The notes under the pieces: generated by a model | Database searches by the model: none | Told to the model about the DNA's origin: nothing | Seen by the model: only the letters and a program-made list of their open reading frames with translations | Translations under genes and position numbers: made by a program | In this document: positions 891-12,817 of the stretch, one piece after another | Numbering within the stretch: the first letter of the stretch is position 1 | Layout of the letters: every line of letters starts with the position of its first letter | Assembly (NCBI GenBank): GCA_022843805.1 | Contig: JALHMY010000045.1 | Location: forward strand, 1-64,000 | Source of the DNA: Fuerstiella sp. | GTDB lineage: Bacteria > Planctomycetota > Planctomycetia > Planctomycetales > Planctomycetaceae | Length of the DNA stretch: 64,000 nucleotides | Direction: 5' to 3'

Positions 891-943
891 GTTAACTCTT
901 CCACCATCCGGTCATTGCCTGTTGCGGTCCAGCAGACACACAC

Positions 944-973
944 AAAGAGCCGTGATCAGGTCACGGCTCTTTG
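944..973 (-). terminator. Rho-independent-type hairpin downstream of hemH
   Basis: A perfect 12-bp inverted repeat (AAAGAGCCGTGA / TCACGGCTCTTT) with a 5-base loop lies immediately after the ferrochelatase stop codon. On the minus strand the stem ends in a short T run. Position and shape fit a transcription terminator for hemH. Confidence 0.65.
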
Positions 974-979
974 CCGTTA

Positions 980-2044
980 TCAGGTACCAGGTGGACGGCC
1001 CGCTGATGTCATGGGCGGGCGAGGGGGCGCGGGGCAGCAGTCCGTTGGGCAGACATCATGGTTGGGACCATACTGACCGATGCATTCCCGAGGACCATCG
1101 GAAATTCGTTCCTGAATGAGCTTCCGAATCATCGAGACGAATTTGGGATGAGCACCCGGAGTCGCCGCGCGGCTCATTTTCATTCCCAGCGAATCGCAGC
1201 ACTTCTTTGCCTCATCGTCCAGGTCATACAGCACTTCCATATGGTCAGAAAGGAAACCAACCGGCGAAATGACAACTTTTCGGGTACCGGCTGTCGCCAG
1301 TGAGCGAAGGAAGTCACAGATGTCAGGTTCCAGCCATGGATCCTGAGGTCGTCCGCTGCGGCTCTGAAAAACGAGTTTCCATCGGTCCGCGGGCAACTGA
1401 AGATTCTCGGCAATCAGCCGACAGGTCTCCAACAGCTGCTTTTCATAGTCCGAGGTTGACGACATGCTGAGAGGGATGCTGTGCGCTGTAAACGCAACGA
1501 ACACGTCACTGTGGGCGTTATCCGACGACTGATCCGCCAACGACTGAATTGACCGATCAACGCTTTCTGTGAGCACAGAAACAAAGTCCGGATGGTTATA
1601 AAACACTCGGATTTTTCCGATTTCCATCTCCGTGGCATCGGCTTCCTGCAGCGCAGCCGCCACATTCTCTCGGTACTGTCGGCATCCGGAATAGCAGCTG
1701 AAACCGGAGGTGATGTAAATCAGCGGTCGCCTGATTCCGTCCGCTTTCATCTGTCGGATGGTACCGGGAAGCAACGGATCCCAGTTTCTGTTTCCCCAGT
1801 AAATCGGCAGCGAAATTCCATGGGAGTCCAGTTCCTTCCGCAATGCGTCGATCAGTTCACGGCACTGAGCATTGATCGGGCTAACACCGCCGAAATGATA
1901 GTAGTGTTCGGCTACTTCAAGCAGGCGTTCCCGGGGAACGGGCTTTCCCCGCAAAACGTTCTCCAGAAACGGGATCACGTCTTCCCGCTTCTCAGGGCCG
2001 CCAAAGGACACAAACAGGACGGCATCGAAATTGTCGGCGGTCAC
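980..2044 (-). CDS. hemH: Ferrochelatase (probably coproporphyrin type, possible 2Fe-2S)
   Basis: Inserts ferrous iron into a porphyrin in the last steps of heme synthesis. The 354-residue protein has the family layout: FVSFGGPE near residue 11, YHFGGVSPIN near 49, the ITSGFSCYSGC segment at 111-121, the metal-binding/catalytic histidine in AFTAHSIP (H188) and the glutamate in SDHMEVLYDLDDE (E270). The SCYSGCRQYREN segment resembles the coproporphyrin ferrochelatases of Gram-positives and relatives more than the proteobacterial enzymes. The C-terminus carries four cysteines (C321, C332, C336, C337), compatible with a [2Fe-2S] cluster as known for some bacterial ferrochelatases. A proline-rich tail follows. 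The gene stands alone, ends at a clear hairpin, and no other heme gene is in the window. The enzyme call is secure; the coproporphyrin subtype and the cluster are inference. Confidence 0.93.
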   Translation of the reverse strand: MTADNFDAVLFVSFGGPEKREDVIPFLENVLRGKPVPRERLLEVAEHYYHFGGVSPINAQCRELIDALRKELDSHGISLPIYWGNRNWDPLLPGTIRQMKADGIRRPLIYITSGFSCYSGCRQYRENVAAALQEADATEMEIGKIRVFYNHPDFVSVLTESVDRSIQSLADQSSDNAHSDVFVAFTAHSIPLSMSSTSDYEKQLLETCRLIAENLQLPADRWKLVFQSRSGRPQDPWLEPDICDFLRSLATAGTRKVVISPVGFLSDHMEVLYDLDDEAKKCCDSLGMKMSRAATPGAHPKFVSMIRKLIQERISDGPRECIGQYGPNHDVCPTDCCPAPPRPPMTSAGRPPGT

Positions 2045-2115
2045 CGGGGCACTACTTTCATCAACGAACTGAGGGAACGATTCAATCGAACTGCATCAGA
2101 CTATAAGCGGAAAGA

Positions 2116-3009
2116 CTATCGGATTCGATCCAGCTCCGGAACTTTGTTCCGCGGTCCGATTGTTCGAGCAAATGCTTCCAGATGGCGGTAATTGTCACAA
2201 TAAGTGGTGTAACGCAAACCCTGTCGAATCTCGCTTGTCAGCGCCTGACCTCCCACGACAAGTGCCGCGCCGACTGACTGAGCGGTATCAAAAAGTATAT
2301 TCATACTGGATGTGAAGCGATCGGGATCTCGAATCACGGTCACACTGATCCACATCAGCTGCGGCCGATCTTTCATTAATGCGGAATTCAAAGAGCTGAA
2401 TGGAAGCATGTTTCCAAGTGATGATGCCCTCCAGCCAGCATCACGCAGCACCAGTTCCGCCATAGTTGTCGCGAGCGTATAAGGGTCACCATCCACCGTG
2501 CCGCCGATTGCAAAAGCGCCGTCAGGTGGCCCTTCCCCGACCGCTCGTCGCAGTTCATGCAGAACTCTCAGGCAAACTTCGCAAGCCCGCCGTTCCTGGT
2601 AGACGTCAAGGTCCCCACATCGCCACAGATCGCCAACCTGATGAAAAACTGATGTGATCGTGCCATCACAAATTTTGGACACACTCGTACCGGAGAGGTA
2701 AAGATCCATCACGATTCGCCGGGCCAGCATTTCATCTCCGGTCACCATTGCCTGCAGAAACTCGTTTCCGCTGATCTCTTCAGAACGAGCAGTGGCACCA
2801 ACGCCAGCGGGCAATCCGATAAGTTCGGGGCGGACGAGACCTATGCCTTCGCTTCTCACATAGTTCAGCACGGCATCCAGTGCCAGGCGACGGTGGCCCC
2901 CGGCTGTCTTCTCCGCACGAATCAAACCTTTGTCGACCCACCGCTTCAGAGATGACTCGCTCACTCCGATCGCAATGGCAATTTCTTTCGGTGAAAAGTA
3001 CTGGGACAA
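2116..3009 (-). CDS. CarH/LitR-like MerR-type regulator with B12-binding-like domain lacking the cobalamin histidines
   Basis: The N-terminus (residues 5-50) is a MerR-type winged helix: FSPKEIAIAIGVSE, then KRWVDKGLI and AGGHRRL. Residues 85-160 match the four-helix cap, and 165-285 the Rossmann-like cobalamin domain, of the CarH/LitR light sensors. In CarH a W-H pair, an E-H pair ten residues later and a lower axial histidine in E.H..G hold adenosylcobalamin. Here the corresponding residues read W129-R130, E139-R140 and G-D-P-Y177, so all three histidines are replaced. The protein probably does not bind B12 as CarH does. It may act as a B12-independent repressor, as known for some CarA proteins, or sense something else. 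It is divergent from the oxidoreductase/DUF1365/methyltransferase run, which is the likely target. Fold and family are well supported; the ligand is unknown. Confidence 0.85.
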   Translation of the reverse strand: MSQYFSPKEIAIAIGVSESSLKRWVDKGLIRAEKTAGGHRRLALDAVLNYVRSEGIGLVRPELIGLPAGVGATARSEEISGNEFLQAMVTGDEMLARRIVMDLYLSGTSVSKICDGTITSVFHQVGDLWRCGDLDVYQERRACEVCLRVLHELRRAVGEGPPDGAFAIGGTVDGDPYTLATTMAELVLRDAGWRASSLGNMLPFSSLNSALMKDRPQLMWISVTVIRDPDRFTSSMNILFDTAQSVGAALVVGGQALTSEIRQGLRYTTYCDNYRHLEAFARTIGPRNKVPELDRIR

Positions 3010-3340
3010 GGCTTTACTTCTTCAAAGGTGGACCGATTTTATTATGAACCGCGACAATGCTTCACACCGAACATTCTTGTAATCAGACTGCTTACAGCAG
3101 ACGGAGAGCAATTCTCCCGATTCTTCCTTACTGGCTCCCCGAACTTTGTAGATCGGAAACAGATCTGTGGCCAGGGTATTCCGGCCCCGGATGGACGTTT
3201 TCGACTGGAATTCCGCTGGACACACGAGAAACAGTGGCTAGAAAGCACAGTGTTCGTGGTTAAAATGACCGTTCTGGCCGTTTGGTTCTGGTTGCATGCG
3301 ACTAACTGGCCTTTCAATTTGAGTCTGGATTAGGCGGATC
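3010..3340. promoter_or_regulatory. Divergent intergenic region between the CarH-like regulator and the FAD/DUF1365/CFA run
   Basis: About 330 bases separate the two divergent start codons, so promoters for both directions and the regulator's operator should lie here. I could not pick a convincing repeated operator by eye. Small palindromes such as CAGATCTG near 3160 and GCATGC near 3295 are noted only as candidates. Open frames through this stretch look like chance frames. Confidence 0.4.
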
Positions 3341-4681
3341 ATGAAGATCGCGATCATCGGGGCGGGTATTTCGGGTCTGACCGCAGCGAGGCTGCTGCAT
3401 ACCGAGCATGAAATCCATGTTTTTGAGTCATCGGAACAGCCGGGCGGACACTCAAATACCGTCTGCTTCGAACTGGATGGTCAGCAGTACAGCATTGATA
3501 CAGGTTTCATCGTGTTCAATGATCGGACGTATCCGAATTTCATCGCCCTGCTGAAGACGCTTGGAGTCGAAGGTCTTGCGACGACAATGAGTTTCGCAGT
3601 TCGCTGTGATCGAACCGGCACGGAATACTGCGGATCAAATCTGAACGGACTGTTTGCTCAGCGCAGCAACCTCTGCAGACCATCGTTTCTGAAAATGGTT
3701 TACGATATTCTGCGATTCAATCGGCTTGGTACGAACGATGGTCATGACAGCGGCGAAGAAATGACCGTGGCAGAGTATCTCCGGTGGCGAGGATTCGGAA
3801 AAGAATTCGCAGAACATTATCTGCTGCCGATGGGTGCCGCAATCTGGTCCTGCCCGACCGGCACGTTTCAGAACTTCCCGATTCGTTTTATCCTGGAGTT
3901 CTACAGGAATCACGGGTTGCTGAGCCTGACGAACCGGCCACAGTGGTACACTATTCCGGGTGGATCCCGAAAATATGTCGAGCGTTTGTGCGATCCGTTT
4001 AAGCATCGAATTCATGTCAGGTCGCCGGTCCTTGCAGTGACCAGGGAGACGAAAAGTGTGCGAATTAAGACAAAAGACAACGAAGCCGAGTTTGATGAAG
4101 TCATCTTCTCCTGTCACAGTGATCAGGCGATGCGAATGCTGACTGATGCGACGACGCTGGAGCGCGAAGTACTTTCATCCTTTCTGTGGGAGGTCAACGA
4201 CACCGTTCTGCACACCGACACATCGGTGCTTCCGAGTCGTCGAAACGCATGGGCCGCATGGAATTACCGAATTCACAGGAATGACGTCAACCGGGCCACA
4301 GTCAGTTATAACATGAATATACTGCAACATCTGAAATCCTCGCACACGTTCTGTGTGACGCTGAATGACAGCGAATCGATCGCTCCTGAAAAAATCATCT
4401 CCCGACATACTTACTCGCACCCCGTATTCACGACCGCTCGCTCGAAAATGCAGCGAAGGCACGGGGAACTGATTCGTAACAATCGAACTTCTTACTGCGG
4501 AGCGTGGTGGGGAAACGGGTTTCATGAAGATGGAGTCACCAGTGCAATTGCAGTCTGCGAAAAATTTGGCATCAGTCGGGCATTTCTGAATGAATCGGCA
4601 GGCCCGGACGCGAGAGAAGGTCAGACACTGAAGGCTGAAAGCATCGCCGCTCTGGTCAATGAGGGAGCGGCCTGTGAATAG
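3341..4681 (+). CDS. FAD-dependent oxidoreductase (amine-oxidase/desaturase-like flavoprotein)
   Basis: The protein starts with a classic FAD-binding Rossmann motif, [12 protein letters not shown] at residues 4-15, followed by the acidic FES pocket and GGHSNTV, typical of the flavin-containing amine oxidase/phytoene desaturase superfamily. The next conserved block, [16 protein letters not shown], is characteristic of the COG2907-type flavoproteins that accompany DUF1365 and cyclopropane-synthase genes. The C-terminus has [13 protein letters not shown], the usual second FAD contact. The gene overlaps the next start and probably heads a translationally coupled operon. Its substrate is unknown; a role in modifying membrane lipids or responding to light or singlet oxygen is inferred from the neighbourhood. 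Length (446 residues) is normal for the family. Confidence 0.85.
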
Positions 4682-5617: not shown

Positions 5618-6949
5618 ATGTCCATTCCTCAGTGTGCCACCCAGACCGAGTCCTGTTCGCTACTTGAGACATCTGCCGCCACGCAATCATTTGGTTCATC
5701 TCATTTACACATCCATGATGATGCGCCTGCGGCTGAAGCACGGACGGTCGGCATCTTTCGTCGGATGATACAGGGCCATTTCAGCCGTGTGGATCGCGAC
5801 CAGCTGATTCTGCAGGAAGGAGATCAGCAGCAGCTGTTTGGACAACGGCACGAGGCAGAGCTGTCGGCAAGGATCTGCATTCATTCTTCCCGATTTTACA
5901 GGAAGGCAGTTTGGGGGGGGTCAATGGGTGCTGCAGAGTCTTACATGGATGGAGACTGGAGCTGCGATTCTCTGACCAGTTTTATGCGAGTCATGCTTCG
6001 AAACGAACAGGTGCTGGACGGCGTCGATTCCCTGTGGAGCTGCGTGACAAGCCTGACAGGACGTATCCGGCACTGGCTGAATCGCAATTCCAGAATTGGC
6101 AGCCGCCGAAATATCGGCGAACACTACGATCTTGGCAATGATTTTTTCCGACTGTTTCTCGACGAAACCATGATGTATTCTTCCGCCATCTTTGAATCGC
6201 CCCAGAGTCAGCTGCGAGATGCATCGCTCAATAAGCTTGATCGGGTATGTCGGTCGCTGAAACTCTCCCCGGCGGATCGTGTCGTCGAAATTGGAACAGG
6301 GTGGGGCGGATTCGCGATTTATGCGGCCCGCAACTACGGCTGCCATGTCACCACAACGACGATATCGAACGAACAATACGTGATGGCCTGTCGTCGAGTT
6401 CAGGAAGAAGGACTTTCAGACCGTGTGACCGTTCTTCTGCAGGACTATCGTGATCTTAAGGGAAACTTTGACAAGCTTGTCTCGCTGGAAATGATCGAAG
6501 CGGTGGGCCGTCAATATTTGCCGCAGTACTTCAAAAAATGTGACAGCCTTCTGAGTTCACGGGGCGCGATGCTGATTCAGGCCATTACGATGCCGGAACA
6601 ACGATTTGCACGTTACGCCAAGTCGGTGGACTTCATTCAAAAGTATGTGTTTCCCGGTGGATTTCTGCCATCTGTTACCGAAATGCAGAACTGCATTCGG
6701 ACATCCACATCGCTCAGACTGCTTTCGCTGGAAGATTTTGGCCTGCACTACGCACTGACTCTGAGACACTGGAATCATCGATTTCACGGTCGGATTGAAG
6801 AAGTGAAAGCGCTGGGTTTCAGCGAACGATTCATCCGGATGTGGCGTTATTATCTTTGTTACTGCGAAGCAGCGTTTCTGGAACGTGCAACCGGCGTGGT
6901 GCAGGCCGTCTGGGCGAAGCCCGAATCGCCGATTGGACTGTCACTCTGA
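5618..6949 (+). CDS. Cyclopropane-fatty-acyl-phospholipid synthase family methyltransferase
   Basis: A SAM-dependent enzyme expected to add a methylene or methyl group to unsaturated acyl chains of membrane phospholipids. Residues 84-185 form the N-terminal lipid-binding part, ending in IGEHYDLGNDFF (167-178) and MMYSSAIF. The SAM-binding glycine motif VVEIGTGWGGFA is at 222-233. SLEMIEAVG, IQAITMPEQR, FIQKYVFPGG and LRHWNHRF are the other conserved blocks of the Cfa family. The N-terminal 45 residues are variable and the exact start is uncertain, but the ATG fits the spacing after the DUF1365 gene (about 90 bases). It is the first of two related methyltransferases in the run, and the closer one to classical Cfa. 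Confidence 0.9.
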   Translation: MSIPQCATQTESCSLLETSAATQSFGSSHLHIHDDAPAAEARTVGIFRRMIQGHFSRVDRDQLILQEGDQQQLFGQRHEAELSARICIHSSRFYRKAVWGGSMGAAESYMDGDWSCDSLTSFMRVMLRNEQVLDGVDSLWSCVTSLTGRIRHWLNRNSRIGSRRNIGEHYDLGNDFFRLFLDETMMYSSAIFESPQSQLRDASLNKLDRVCRSLKLSPADRVVEIGTGWGGFAIYAARNYGCHVTTTTISNEQYVMACRRVQEEGLSDRVTVLLQDYRDLKGNFDKLVSLEMIEAVGRQYLPQYFKKCDSLLSSRGAMLIQAITMPEQRFARYAKSVDFIQKYVFPGGFLPSVTEMQNCIRTSTSLRLLSLEDFGLHYALTLRHWNHRFHGRIEEVKALGFSERFIRMWRYYLCYCEAAFLERATGVVQAVWAKPESPIGLSL

Positions 6950-6996
6950 GCATACCATTACCTGAGATCAATACTTCGTCCAAAGGTGACCAGGCA

Positions 6997-8130
6997 ATGG
7001 CTCTTCAATTGCTGACAGGATTTCTGGTACGACAGGGTGAAAAATCCTGGATGCCGGATATTGTTGTTCGCGCCGGAATTCGCAGATTGCTGACGATTCG
7101 ACTGCAATCTCTGGCCCGAATCGGTGTTGAGCGGTCCAGCGAATTGTTTCGGAGCTTTCAGGAAGAAGCTGGCCACGGACCGCTGGCTCATGTTCCTCAA
7201 AAGGCAAACGAGCAGCACTATGAGTTGCCTGCGGATTTCTTCAGACTGGTTCTTGGCAGCCATTTGAAATACAGCAGCGGCTACTTTCTAAACCCGAATG
7301 ACCACCTGAACAAGGCGGAGGAAACCGCACTGCGACTGACTTGCGAACATGCGGAGTTGTCTGACGGTCAGCGGATTCTTGAACTGGGCTGCGGCTGGGG
7401 CTCTTTGAGCCTGTTTATGGCGAGGCAGTTTCCAAACAGCCGCATTCTGGCTGTTTCGAACTCGCATTCACAGCGACACTTCATTCAGAATGAAATTCAA
7501 AAATTCGGACTCGGTAATCTTGAGGTCAGGACCTGTGATATCAATGATCTTTCGCTGACCGAAACATTCGATCGTGTTGTTTCCGTCGAGATGTTTGAGC
7601 ATGTTCGAAATCATGCAGGATTAATGGAGCGAATTAGTCGCTGGCTGACACCGAACGGAAAATTGTTCGTACACATTTTCTGCCACAACCGGTTTACCTA
7701 CGCTTTTGAAGACGACGGGCCATCCAGCTGGATGGCCCGCCATTTTTTCAGCGGGGGAGTTATGCCGGGACGCGACCTGCTGATGCAGTGTCAGCAGCAT
7801 CTGGCTTTGCAGCAGAGATGGGACTGGGACGGCCGGCATTATCAGAGAACCTGCAACCTTTGGCTGTCGAGAATGGACGATCACGATGAAGAAGTGAACA
7901 GCATTCTGAAACAAACTTACGGAAACGACTGGCTGCTTTGGAAACAGCGATGGCGCATCTTTTTTATGTCATGCGCCGAACTGTTCGGCTTTAATAATGG
8001 CCAGGAATGGCACGTCAGTCATTATCTTTTTCATAAGAACAGACTGAGATTCGAGTCGTCAGATTCCGTAAACCAGAAGGTGAATAATTCGTCGTCTTCT
8101 GCGTCTGACGCAGATGAATCGCTGGTGTAG
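6997..8130 (+). CDS. Second CFA-like SAM-dependent methyltransferase
   Basis: Start taken at the ATG at 6997, 47 bases after the previous stop, preceded by AAAGGTGA; an in-frame ATG inside the upstream gene is less likely. The protein (377 residues) has QHYELPADFF, LKYSSGYF, the SAM motif ILELGCGWGSLSLF, VVSVEMFEHVRNH and SWMARHFFSGGVMP. This pattern is the CFA/coclaurine-N-methyltransferase-like branch, distinct from the neighbouring enzyme, so the pair is unlikely to be a recent duplication. A serine-rich tail ends the protein. In similar clusters such enzymes act on fatty acids, but the substrate here is not shown. The last 100 bases overlap the 3' end of the minus-strand gene at 8031-8954, and an unusual perfect palindrome sits inside the gene. 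Confidence 0.87.
   Translation: MALQLLTGFLVRQGEKSWMPDIVVRAGIRRLLTIRLQSLARIGVERSSELFRSFQEEAGHGPLAHVPQKANEQHYELPADFFRLVLGSHLKYSSGYFLNPNDHLNKAEETALRLTCEHAELSDGQRILELGCGWGSLSLFMARQFPNSRILAVSNSHSQRHFIQNEIQKFGLGNLEVRTCDINDLSLTETFDRVVSVEMFEHVRNHAGLMERISRWLTPNGKLFVHIFCHNRFTYAFEDDGPSSWMARHFFSGGVMPGRDLLMQCQQHLALQQRWDWDGRHYQRTCNLWLSRMDDHDEEVNSILKQTYGNDWLLWKQRWRIFFMSCAELFGFNNGQEWHVSHYLFHKNRLRFESSDSVNQKVNNSSSSASDADESLV
7716..7746 (+). repeat. Intragenic perfect palindrome followed by a T run
   Basis: CGGGCCATCCAG / CTGGATGGCCCG is a 24-bp perfect palindrome inside the second methyltransferase gene, followed two bases later by six T residues. It looks like a rho-independent terminator placed within a coding region. 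The encoded DGPSSWMARHFF is itself conserved in the family, so part of the palindrome is constrained by protein sequence. With no loop bases a simple hairpin needs at least four unpaired centre bases. Confidence 0.5.
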
Positions 8131-8954
8131 CCACTCATGTTGCCTGGAGCTGCGGCTGGTGCGCCCGAAGAAGGCCCTGAAGCTCCCGGAGGTGGTCCGC
8201 CCGGCAAAAGACTGCCATCATAGACAGCTTCCACCACATTACTGACGAGCTCCAGATACTGGTTTGGCTGGCGAGCCCTGATAAACAGATGAATCATACC
8301 AGGCTGTGGTGTGGCCTGAGTCTTCAGATAGAAACGTCCACTGGATCCGGCTTTACCATAGTTAATCCACGGATTATTCGGGCTGCCCTGAGCGACTTCT
8401 ATAAGGTATTCGGCATCCCAGATCAGGTCCGAGTCCGTAATCGTTCCCCAGACGACCAGATTATTCGCATAGGCTTCTGTAACAACTGGAGTGTCATTCT
8501 CATAGGCGGCTACAGGTAAGTGCAGGATCTCTGAAAACTGAGTCTGTTCACCCACTCTCTCCACTGCTCTGAAACCCAGTTCAAAGGCCAGGTGATTATT
8601 GGGTACGGGATCGACGTTGAACTCCCAGCGATACTTGTTGAAATAAGAGTCGTAGAATGCGGGCACTGTGTGTTCAAACGATCCGTCGTCGTTGATGTCG
8701 ACCTGCACGGTCATCGGATTCGGACCACCCGTGGCAATTGAATCGTCTTCAACAAATCCCGTAATCGATGGACGCCCGCCCCATACCACATCCACAACCG
8801 GAGCGGCTCCAAGCGGAGCAGGCATAATCTTAGTCTCGCAGGCCTCGGTACTAACCAGTCTGCTCTTAGCCTTTGAACTGCTTCGGCGAACATTTCGACC
8901 GCCTCTCAGATCACTGCCGGCAAAACGAAACCAGTTAATCAGAGATGAAAGCAT
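8031..8954 (-). CDS. Secreted surface protein of unknown function
   Basis: Start placed at the ATG at 8954, which has GGAGA at good spacing; the longer frame upstream lacks support. The N-terminus is short, basic and hydrophobic (LSSLINWFRFAG, then RRSSSKAKS). A segment resembling the planctomycete LEPR-XLL type of export motif follows (STEACETKIMPAP). The middle (about residues 50-250) is beta-rich with acidic loops such as DINDDGSF and looks like one or two immunoglobulin-like domains. A proline/glycine/serine-rich linker and an acidic serine-rich tail close the protein. No enzyme motif is seen. It is convergent with, and overlaps by 100 bases, the second methyltransferase gene. It is probably cell-surface or periplasmic, but its function is unknown. 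Confidence 0.6.
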   Translation of the reverse strand: MLSSLINWFRFAGSDLRGGRNVRRSSSKAKSRLVSTEACETKIMPAPLGAAPVVDVVWGGRPSITGFVEDDSIATGGPNPMTVQVDINDDGSFEHTVPAFYDSYFNKYRWEFNVDPVPNNHLAFELGFRAVERVGEQTQFSEILHLPVAAYENDTPVVTEAYANNLVVWGTITDSDLIWDAEYLIEVAQGSPNNPWINYGKAGSSGRFYLKTQATPQPGMIHLFIRARQPNQYLELVSNVVEAVYDGSLLPGGPPPGASGPSSGAPAAAPGNMSGYTSDSSASDAEDDELFTFWFTESDDSNLSLFL

Positions 8955-9775
8955 CACATTTCTCCACATCGCACAGAAAATCGCGCAAAGGATCAGCACC
9001 AACCGAAGTCGTCCTATTACTGTTGCCGAACCACGTTCGTGGAACTCTCGAAACAGTCGCTGAACCTTCAAAACAGTCGCGGAACCGTAAACTCTTCAGC
9101 TCCTCCGGGAACCAATGCTCCAACGATCATTCAGTGAATCGCAGATGTCGGTTTGGACCGGACACAGGAAATCTGCCGGTTAAAAAAATTCCTTCGACTG
9201 TGCCGGAAACAATGAGGAGCCAAAGATGCACGCAAATCGGACCTGTTCCGTGTGGAGCAGGTGTTCGTATATTCACGCACAACTACAACAGAGTCCCCAT
9301 TTCCTGGACCAGGGAAAATTCTGCAGAACACTTGCAGCTGACGCTATGGCTATTCCCTGCTGGAAGAGCGAAAACGATTGTGCTGGCGGGACGGTCGCAA
9401 CGATTGTTACGCCATTGAGCAAAACACATGGGGTCAGTGGCGGTTTCTGCCGGAACGACTTCAATTCCAAACCGGGAGCCGGATCGTGGACGCTGATTGT
9501 TTGCAGGTCTGTGTTAAGACGGGCAAATACCGAAGACCGAAACCCGTGCAGTTCAGGCGACTCTTCCAAAGCAGCGAGTCCGGAGGAAATGCGCTTGAGC
9601 AGTTGTCCTGATTTTGACGATCTTCCGACTACGCAGGGCTGCTCCGGTCTTTACGTCTGCGTGCGCCTGCACAAAAGTGACGTTCGATTTGCCCTGTCGC
9701 AGTTTCGGCTGACACACACAGACCCCATCCAAAGACAGTCAGCATTAACGTGTCTATTGCTGGCCAGGAATGGTC
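8955..9775. other. Long intergenic gap, no convincing gene
   Basis: Open frames cross this stretch on both strands, but none shows a recognisable domain, a good ribosome-binding site and sensible composition together. A small direct repeat (AAACAGTCGC followed by GGAACC or TGAACC) occurs near 9051-9086. It probably contains the promoters of the secreted-protein gene (minus) and of the RND exporter (plus). Confidence 0.4.
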
Positions 9776-12700
9776 ATGACGGTATCCGAAGAGAATGCAG
9801 CAACTCTGTCACTGTCTGCCCGGTTTCTGGGTGGGTTAGTGACTGCAGTTTCAGCACGCCCGCGGTTCACACTTTGGTGTGTTCTGTCGCTTGCATGCGC
9901 TGCGGTCGGAATTACGGTCGCCCACCTGACTGTTCGCACAAGCCGGGCCGATCTGCTCAATCCGGCTGCCGAATTCGCGAAATCGTGGAAAACGTACGCA
10001 GAAACATTCGGTGCGACCTCAGATCTGATCGTTGTCGTCGAATCAAAAACCACAAATCCGCAGCTTTTGCAGTCAGTGCTTAATGATCTTGGGCAGCGCG
10101 TGGAGCGTGAAAGCGAGCTCTTTTCGAAGGTCCTTTATCGCATTGATCAGCAGTCGCTTCGTTCAAAAGCACTTCAGTTTCTTTCGCCGTCACAGCTGCA
10201 GCGAACGGCCAGCCGAGTTGAAAGGTATAGTCCGGTTATTCGTAATCAGCAGTGGGACAGACTGCGGACGGAGAATCTGGTGGCCCAGCTGCGGACCGGA
10301 ATTCTGAAGGCAGAAAAAACCGGCGCGACGGCTGAGTCTCTTTATGCCCATGCTGATCGCTTTGCTGAAAGTCTTCTGCGGTTCCAGCAACAGGCTCAGA
10401 ATGGATCCAACTTCGAAGCAGCCAGTTTTTATTCACCGTTATCTGAACTTCTGAAGACACAGGCAGATGCCGGAACTACAGACAGCGATGTGGCCTATTT
10501 GATGAATGCGGAGAAAACGGTCGGACTCCTGCAGGTCTTTCCGGTGTCTCAGCCGGATGAAATCGACGAAAACAGTCGTTCCATTCGAAAGCTCAGGGAG
10601 CTGATGAATGTTGTCGCGGCAGAATATCGACCGTTGTCTGAAGAACTATCGCTCTCTCTGACGGGCGTCCCGGTTCTTGAACACGACGAGATGCACCGAA
10701 GCGCTGCGGACATGCTGAACGCCGGAATGATTGCCTTCGCACTGGTCAGTGTCGTGCTGTTCCTGGGTTTCCGAAGCATGCGGCACCCGATGCTGGCAAT
10801 CATGACACTCGTGGTTTCGATCTGCTGGACTTTCGGCGCCGCAACTCTTGTGATTGGCCACCTGAATATACTGAGCGTGTCTTTTGCAGTCATCCTGATT
10901 GGACTTGGCATTGATTTCTCAATCCATTTCCTAAGCCGTTATCTGTCTCTTCGACATGAGCTTTATGACCTGGGCGACGCACTGCGCAAAACGGCGCATA
11001 CTGCCGGAACCGGCATTTTGATGTCTGCCATGACGACCGCTCTGGCCTTTGGAAGTGCGATGCTGACGGGAGTCCCGGGCCTGGCTGAACTGGGTCTGAT
11101 TTCCGGGATGGGCATTTTAATCTGTGCTGCGGCGACATTTGTTTTCCTGCCCGCTCTGATTGCCCTGTCTGATGCTGAACTCGATGTGGAATCTCTTCCA
11201 CATCCTTTTACAAGCCCGCTTTACCGGCGTCTGATCACCACCTGGCCAGTCGTGGTCGTCGCGTTCAGTGTTATTGGAATTGGCGCTATCGCATCTCGAG
11301 CGTTCTCGTATACGGATGGAAGCGTGACATGTCGTGCCCGGTACGATTCAAACCTGATGAAACTGCATGATCAGTCTCTGGAATCCGTACGAGCTGAGTC
11401 GCGACTCTTTGAACAGACCAGCGAGTCTCTGCTTTACGCTGTGGCCGTTGCGGACAGCTGGGAAGATGCAATACGCCTTCGAAACGAATTTCAGAAGCTG
11501 CCAACGGTCGGTCGCGTCAGCGAAATGGCCAGCCGTTTGCCACCGCCGCCAACCAGCGAACAAAGGCAGCTGATTCAGGAGCTTCGAAATCAGATCTACT
11601 CGATGCCAAAGTCGCGCCCGCAGTTTCAGCCAGTCAGCCTTTCTCTTGTCGGACGTGAGATCGAATCGCTCTATCGCATCCTGAACTCCTCTCCCAGCGT
11701 GACTGCAAGAAATGCGGCCGGCAAACTGAATGCGTTCCTTGATGAACTGGAAAGTATGTCAAAGGGAACGGGAGACAAGGCAGTCGCTCTGATGGAGGCC
11801 TATCAGATGATGGTCGCCAGATCTCTTCTGCAGGAACTTGATCGAGTCGCAATTGCGTCGAAGATGGAACCGGTCAGACCATCGGACCTGCCCCCTGAAC
11901 TGCAGGCACGGTATGTGGTGGCTAAAGGAGATCAGCAGGCATGGCTGGTCAAGGTTTATCCGCGGCAGCCAGTCTGGGATGCAAAGCCGCTCGCCGCTTT
12001 TGTTCGTGATGTGCGATCGGTTGCCCCTGATATCTCCGGTGTACCGATTCAGAATTATGAATCGGCCGGACTGTTGCATGTCAGCTACAAGACCGTCGGG
12101 CTCTACTCACTGGCGGTCATTTCGTTCTTTCTGCTGTTCGATTTCCTCAGACCCGGGCAAAAACTGCTGACCGTTATTCCGCCTGTTGCTGTTGCGGCAT
12201 TCGTTGGTTACTCGATGCATCAGCGAACAGGAAACGTCAATTTGAATATGCTGGTCATGATTGCAATGGGATTAATGGTGCTGATCGCGTCTGTTCTTGA
12301 TTATCGAAATCTCCGTGACAGCGTTCTGGCTATGTTTCCGTCGATCGGCGGAGTGATTCTGCTTCTGGGTGTGATGGTCATCACCGGACTGAACTTTAAC
12401 CCTGTGAATCTGATCGTACTGCCGCTGATACTGGGCATTGGCGTGGATAACGGAATTCACCTGCTTCAGGACTTCCGTCGGCAAATTGCATCAGGGGCCG
12501 ACTCTTATGCTCCATCGCCCGATACGACCAACGGGGTACTGATGACTTCTCTGACGTCAATCGTCGGATTTGGAAGTATGATGGTTTCCGCTCATCAGGG
12601 CCTGTTCACGATAGGAATTCTGCTGGCCATCGGCATTGCCGGCAGTCTTCTCATCGCCCTGATTCCACTGCCCGCTTTACTGACTCTGGTCGGTCGACAT

Positions 12701-12817
12701 CAGCCCGCTTCCATGGAACCGGTAAGACTGCGGCCCGGCAAATCCGAAGTGTCGGAATCAACGACACAGTCGTCACCGACGAAACAACAGCCTCAGAAGT
12801 CAAAGAAGGCGGCGTAG
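9776..12817 (+). CDS. hpnN: HpnN-like RND/MMPL family exporter
   Basis: A 1013-residue inner-membrane transporter with the duplicated RND layout. One transmembrane helix lies near residue 30, and a large periplasmic loop starts with RTSRADLLNP, typical of the hopanoid-associated HpnN proteins. A five- to six-helix bundle follows (about 310-460) containing GLGIDFSIHFLSRYL, then a second periplasmic loop (about 490-760), a second bundle with GIGVDNGIHLLQDFRR (about 880-895), and a lysine-rich cytoplasmic tail. HpnN moves hopanoids to the outer membrane in known cases. No other hopanoid gene is nearby, so the cargo is inferred. The ATG at 9776 is preferred over the one at 9770 because AGGA lies seven bases before it. 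Confidence 0.82.
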   Translation: MTVSEENAATLSLSARFLGGLVTAVSARPRFTLWCVLSLACAAVGITVAHLTVRTSRADLLNPAAEFAKSWKTYAETFGATSDLIVVVESKTTNPQLLQSVLNDLGQRVERESELFSKVLYRIDQQSLRSKALQFLSPSQLQRTASRVERYSPVIRNQQWDRLRTENLVAQLRTGILKAEKTGATAESLYAHADRFAESLLRFQQQAQNGSNFEAASFYSPLSELLKTQADAGTTDSDVAYLMNAEKTVGLLQVFPVSQPDEIDENSRSIRKLRELMNVVAAEYRPLSEELSLSLTGVPVLEHDEMHRSAADMLNAGMIAFALVSVVLFLGFRSMRHPMLAIMTLVVSICWTFGAATLVIGHLNILSVSFAVILIGLGIDFSIHFLSRYLSLRHELYDLGDALRKTAHTAGTGILMSAMTTALAFGSAMLTGVPGLAELGLISGMGILICAAATFVFLPALIALSDAELDVESLPHPFTSPLYRRLITTWPVVVVAFSVIGIGAIASRAFSYTDGSVTCRARYDSNLMKLHDQSLESVRAESRLFEQTSESLLYAVAVADSWEDAIRLRNEFQKLPTVGRVSEMASRLPPPPTSEQRQLIQELRNQIYSMPKSRPQFQPVSLSLVGREIESLYRILNSSPSVTARNAAGKLNAFLDELESMSKGTGDKAVALMEAYQMMVARSLLQELDRVAIASKMEPVRPSDLPPELQARYVVAKGDQQAWLVKVYPRQPVWDAKPLAAFVRDVRSVAPDISGVPIQNYESAGLLHVSYKTVGLYSLAVISFFLLFDFLRPGQKLLTVIPPVAVAAFVGYSMHQRTGNVNLNMLVMIAMGLMVLIASVLDYRNLRDSVLAMFPSIGGVILLLGVMVITGLNFNPVNLIVLPLILGIGVDNGIHLLQDFRRQIASGADSYAPSPDTTNGVLMTSLTSIVGFGSMMVSAHQGLFTIGILLAIGIAGSLLIALIPLPALLTLVGRHQPASMEPVRLRPGKSEVSESTTQSSPTKQQPQKSKKAA

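Follow-up and report, generated by a model that had tools for sequence, protein, structure and literature searches.

We report here a newly recognised variant of the CarH/LitR regulators that is widespread in planctomycetes and carries a conserved tyrosine, Tyr177, where CarH has its lower axial histidine. It is represented by the protein encoded at 2116-3009 of a 64,000-nucleotide stretch of Fuerstiella sp. DNA (contig JALHMY010000045.1; hereafter the window), and a 9-bp TGAACGTTT operator, newly identified here, recurs beside the regulator gene across the clade. We read the protein as a dark-state repressor with a Tyr177 cobalamin sensor that would be relieved by light and would control a photo-oxidative-stress regulon, and we give this reading as a whole a probability of roughly 0.45. 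Our computations show the substitutions and their conservation, an otherwise intact pocket, the fold, the synteny, and an operator linked with the presence of the regulator; from such material we infer the repressor sign, operator binding, the cobalamin ligand and the light signal.

The regulator and its domains are as follows.
2116..3009 (-): CarH/CtMerR-like regulator, 297 aa, TTG start (ORF, Pfam, AF2 model)
aa 4-53: MerR/BldC-type winged helix-turn-helix (wHTH)
aa 77-157: four-helix domain
aa 166-284: Rossmann domain (AF2 model, high confidence)

Pfam matched a MerR HTH and a B12-binding_2 four-helix domain, to which the AF2 model (mean pLDDT 95.1) added the Rossmann half, and the protein thus has the layout of CarH and class I LitR, with an N-terminal MerR-type HTH and a cobalamin-binding domain (CBD) of four-helix and Rossmann halves. 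This architecture had been claimed in an earlier note on the same DNA and is borne out by Pfam, the model and the fold matches. The HTH is similar to that of BldC. By both sequence and fold the nearest chains were 8jbs/8jbt, the CBD of CtMerR, ahead of CarH (sequence E 2e-37); the dark-state CtMerR CBD was the top structural match (Z 23.8), against Z of about 18 for the CarH CBDs. CtMerR, a MerR-family protein of Chloracidobacterium thermophilum, has been proven to sense green light through AdoCbl (PMC11796333). The score against the NCBIfam CarH equivalog NF052513 was 44.1 bits, with a cut-off of 400.

The pocket residues were located by alignment with CarH of T. thermophilus HB27 (locus L169, plasmid record) and CtMerR (8jbs), in which W131, H132, E141, H142 and H177 of CarH correspond to W129, R130, E139, R140 and Y177 of the regulator.
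2620..2625 (-): W129-R130 (CarH W131-H132); W conserved, position 130 variable
2590..2595 (-): E139-R140 (CarH E141-H142; alignment, tree)
2479..2481 (-): Y177, codon TAT, at the position of the CarH lower axial His177 (alignment)

The three replacements named in the earlier note, and its statement that W129 and E139 of the adenosyl-cap motif are kept, agree with this alignment, which contains no shifted histidine: the loop around position 177 reads GDPYTLA in the regulator, GERHEIG in CarH and GDLHEIA in CtMerR. In the Wx9EH adenosyl-cap motif of CarH the histidine is replaced by R140 while W129 and E139 are present, and Y177 stands in place of the lower axial histidine of D/ExHx2G/P. The pocket signature of the light receptors consists of GxxW, EH, GxxH and GxxxP (PMC11796333); the regulator keeps G126 and W129 (GxxW), E139, and G199 and P203 (GxxxP), with two histidines changed, so that ER and GxxY replace EH and GxxH. 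S222xT224 and G253G254 are kept as well, and so is the D-x-Y-...-SxT-...-GG frame. Judged by motif, the regulator is not a CarH, as it fails on EH, on the histidine and on the NCBIfam score.

Not all three substitutions carry the same weight. The cobalt ligands of CarH are only H177 (dark) and H132 (light), and in TtCarH, where H132 is the light-state upper ligand, the H132A mutation blocks loss of the tetramer (PMC10442372). H142 of CarH is a residue of the adenosyl pocket and does not ligate cobalt. Position 130 is E, D, S, A, R or Q among the relatives and CtMerR also has Arg there, so R130 is not diagnostic and H132, judged by CtMerR, looks dispensable; since TtCarH needs H132 for its light step, that step must differ in CtMerR-type proteins anyway. 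The earlier statement that every cobalamin-coordinating histidine is replaced therefore holds in that all three residues are changed, and overstates the case for H142, which is no cobalt ligand, and for the seemingly dispensable H132.

Of the 150 genomes of the family, 103 carried the regulator, as did 62 of the 294 genomes sampled phylum-wide; a scan of genome contigs found just two loci. In a midpoint-rooted tree of 127 rows, from which columns 130, 140 and 177 had been left out and which has some long branches, the Tyr type formed one clade of 119 planctomycete rows (SH-aLRT 98), apart from the canonical His rows (CtMerR, CarH, a Rhizobium plasmid protein and five planctomycete CarH-like proteins). 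Tyr is found at position 177 in 104 of the 119 clade rows, the remainder being scattered reversals or losses, and in 102 of the 109 with an intact pocket. In this midpoint-rooted tree the change from EH to ER occurred once, inside the Tyr clade (81-row clade, support 98), and R140 was never combined with His177 (0/80 rows). W129 and E139, the upper-face adenosyl signature, are retained in nearly all members. Six rows (L052, L058, L059, L074_2585, L194 and L199) lack G126, W129 and E139 together, and all of them lack Y177 as well. Conserved with an intact pocket and lost with a decayed one, Tyr177 behaves as a working part of the pocket rather than as a product of drift.

Four ligand-free-looking paralogues without G126, W129, E139 and Y177 lie at L052:6035-6913, L058:6596-7465, L059:6078-7004 and L074:2567-3445, the last directly following an intact Tyr-type copy. 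Plasmid searches returned His-type outgroups only; an intact His-type CarH-like ORF on plasmid pTH2c of Rhizobium sp. TH2 (L168:5962-6900) is not annotated in the gene table used.

Retention of the cobalamin frame speaks for cobalamin being bound, with Tyr below its cobalt atom; a cobalamin pocket that is changed yet still functional, Tyr-on or Tyr-plugged, appears likeliest and is preferred over a B12-free one. That the regulator binds some cobalamin is somewhat favoured, and that it senses light through it has a little less than an even chance. This reading is weakened by the loss of the CarH-defining ligand His177 together with that of H142. Tyr moreover reaches about 2 Å further than His, and the corrin or the loop would have to move. 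A review of residues found beneath the cobalt lists His, Cys, Arg, Trp, Asn-water, Leu and Thr, and no Tyr (PMC13331322).

The main counter-evidence to our reading comes from HaAI-2E, whose CBD is of the CarH type, has Arg at the His177 position, and binds only OHCbl, not AdoCbl or MeCbl, independently of light (PMC11796333). It would fit a regulator that binds OHCbl or cob(II)alamin as a redox or oxygen sensor and reports photo-oxidative stress indirectly, as would the coupling of CarH itself to O2 and redox (PMC10442372) and the relation of this class of operon to singlet oxygen (PMC7380195). The retention of W129 and E139 in nearly all members suggests, however, that a bulky group still sits on the upper face, and we regard a cobalamin sensor of this kind, blind to light, as unlikely. 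HaAI-2E differs from the regulator in having Arg rather than Tyr, in lacking the light signature, in being a single sequence rather than a conserved clade, and in not being a transcription factor.

The earlier note had raised the idea of a B12-free or alternate-ligand version of the CarH switch. The near-invariant Tyr, in a cobalamin pocket conserved in other respects, suits an alternate ligand, but the B12-free version is made less likely by the retained GxxW, GxxxP, SxT and GG. In its fullest form it would make the CBD a platform for protein interaction, with the signal carried by a partner such as a LOV protein or an antirepressor, as in class II LitR, a repressor of a comparable gene set that a LOV protein releases (PMC9758184), or in CarA, which works without B12 (PMC9304148). 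Class II LitR, however, lacks the Rossmann half that is kept here with SxT and GG, the recurrent neighbour clusters included no recognisable LOV gene, and the six truly decayed pockets named above lost G126, W129, E139 and Y177 jointly, unlike the other members; we regard such a platform as equally unlikely.

As to supply, the genome of the window encodes a PduO-type adenosyltransferase and has only one match to PF02310, and synthesis of AdoCbl is plausible. Co-occurrence of B12 genes was considered as an indicator of AdoCbl use and rejected: an adenosyltransferase (PF01923) is near-universal in the family (140 of 150 genomes) and cannot separate use from non-use.

The genes around the regulator and the predicted operator are the following.
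980..2044 (-): hemH ferrochelatase, 71 bp downstream of the regulator, same strand
3266..3283 (+): predicted operator, tandem 9-bp direct repeat TGACCGTTC-TGGCCGTTT, 57 bp before the UfaD-like start
3341..4681 (+): UfaD-like FAD amine-oxidase-family protein, gene 1 of the divergent operon (role by analogy to PMC7380195)
4659..5525 (+): UfaO-like DUF1365 protein (Pfam; DUF1365 named in UfaO by PMC7380195)
5618..6949 (+): CMAS-family methyltransferase, UfaM-like (Pfam)
6841..8130 (+): second CMAS-family methyltransferase (Pfam), overlapping the previous gene as listed

The true start of the second CMAS gene is probably downstream of 6841, because the listed ORF overlaps the preceding gene. At the end of this lipid operon lies a 346-aa ORF without Pfam or NCBIfam match (8031-9071, (-)), and further downstream an MMPL/HpnN-like hopanoid-type RND transporter (9770-12817). 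The furan fatty acids that UfaM/D/O produce guard against singlet oxygen (PMC7380195). The divergent operon of UfaD-like, UfaO-like (DUF1365) and two CMAS genes adjoins the regulator in about 30 of 70 loci, often followed by DUF1295. Other genes near the regulator in these 70 loci encode a sigma-70-family protein (17), HemH (13), an SRPBCC protein (11), photolyase (10), an AhpC-type protein (7), a DCC1-type protein (5) and fasciclin (4). In the 17 loci (e.g. L033, L042, L144) the sigma-70-family gene, which has regions 2 and 4, repeatedly runs divergently from the regulator, the 9-bp repeats lying in between, an arrangement that looks as if a light-response sigma factor were under the control of the regulator.

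The hemH gene, probably co-transcribed with the regulator, bears on a further explanation, namely that a porphyrin, either haem or protoporphyrin IX, has taken the place of cobalamin in the pocket and is ligated by Tyr177, so that the protein would detect the photosensitiser directly. Haem is often ligated by Tyr, the AppA SCHIC domain, a cobalamin-like fold used with haem or without cobalamin, is similar in fold to the regulator model (Z 18, 12% identity), and hemH is directly downstream on the same strand in 11 loci of close relatives. This adjacency is confined to the closest clade, however, whereas Tyr177 is phylum-wide, which leaves a haem-sensor reading of hemH as a minor rival only, and the remaining SxT and GG motifs for the nucleotide tail serve cobalamin in known members; we consider the porphyrin pocket very unlikely. 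Separately, a rise of the ferrochelatase (980-2044) in the light would remove the photosensitiser protoporphyrin.

The AAACGTTCA/TGAACGTTT words and their tandem arrangement are common to fourteen regulator-UfaD intergenic regions, with tandem TGAACGTTT-TGAACGTTT as the consensus. Repeat enrichment peaked at a spacing of exactly 9 bp (mean 14.5/18 vs 10.7 in shuffled sequences; other spacings ≤12.6). A pair scoring at least 14 was found upstream of 51% of the ER-Tyr and 68% of the EH-Tyr regulators, and upstream of none of the five His-type ones or in shuffles, and the 53 pairs scoring at least 15 in 1.07 Mb of loci were mostly intergenic beside regulator, UfaD, sigma or SRPBCC genes. The copy in the window is imperfect (14/18), which counts against the main reading; a two-mismatch search of the 64-kb window found 3266-3283 and one other, weaker site. 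CarH-type 11-bp TnnACA repeats occurred in the upstream regions as sporadic pairs only, and a sigma-70 promoter scan of 900-3400 remained at chance level. In several loci the operator lies at or just after a -10-like hexamer (-10/+1 region), most clearly in L062 and L055; in L062, TTGACG-N15-TATAAT is followed 5 bp further on by the repeat. This placement suggests repression, and repression through the 9-bp repeats is probable. BldC binds exactly 9-bp direct repeats in head-to-tail fashion (PMC5859096), and the predicted operators are likewise 9-bp tandem direct repeats at target promoters; from the co-occurrence we infer that the regulator binds them.

Another site in the same genome, outside the window (L207:1501-1517; G000:C74:22275-22291), lies between folE-DPRP (CryB-like) and SDR-DUF2867 genes, a predicted second target, and sites in the genomes of relatives are found at photolyase-folE, SDR-DUF2867, fasciclin, photolyase/sigma and UfaD genes. 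Twenty genomes with the regulator contained 17 site matches; most were strong, and 11 lay next to the regulator or to genes of these kinds, whereas 20 genomes without it had no strong sites and five weak ones (score ≤14), none at these genes. In Pseudomonas, class II LitR puts photolyase, ufaM, folE, cryB and related genes under light control (PMC9758184), and several operator-adjacent genes are members of this known LitR light regulon; the photolyase/Ufa/FolE/CryB set is matched here at the gene level, by synteny and operator sites. Control of this light-stress gene set by the regulator is very likely, and the association with a photo-oxidative operon noted earlier is supported by synteny, operator and regulon sites alike.

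In the mechanism that we favour, the regulator would repress the photo-oxidative-stress regulon in the dark, its BldC-like winged helices binding head-to-tail on the tandem repeats at or just after the -10 of the target. The CarH-type domain would take cobalamin base-off, and the conserved Tyr177 would lie below the cobalt as a ligand or as a non-ligating plug. Light, or an ensuing redox change, would alter the cobalamin, loosen the oligomer and free the promoter.

The regulator is CarH-like by architecture and target genes, and probably by operator logic too. With CarH and class I LitR of T. thermophilus it shares the HTH/four-helix cap/Rossmann order, W and E of Wx9EH and light-stress targets including photolyase, but it lacks His142 and His177, uses a 9-bp rather than the 11-bp TnnACA repeat and falls far below the CarH score. 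Class II LitR (PplR/PmlR2) shares the regulon genes (photolyase, UfaM, FAD oxidoreductase, SDR, FolE, CryB/DPRP); it lacks the Rossmann half and recognises TGTACA-N12-TGTACA sites, whereas the Tyr clade keeps a full CBD. BldC, similar in HTH and operator geometry, has no sensor domain and a different consensus (AATTXXXXC). CtMerR shares the SESSLKRW-type wHTH, the CBD fold, GxxW, GxxxP and the Arg after Trp, and differs in having EH and a lower ligand His204 where the regulator has ER and Tyr177. The protein is best filed in a Tyr-type branch beside CtMerR, its closest characterised relative. A literature search, with subscription papers mostly outside its reach, did not find Tyr as a lower cobalamin ligand or a planctomycete Tyr family described.

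The residue beneath the cobalt sets the chemistry of cobalamin, and with Tyr conserved in a light-receptor pocket that is intact in other respects, the need for a lower ligand in B12 photoreception becomes directly testable. That the family constitutes phylum-wide photoreceptors, with cobalamin (less likely porphyrin) on a Tyr lower ligand gating their own 9-bp-repeat regulon, is a rather doubtful extension. Planctomycetes would gain a candidate regulator of light stress whose operator can be searched for and whose regulon is predicted, and a new optogenetic part might also result.
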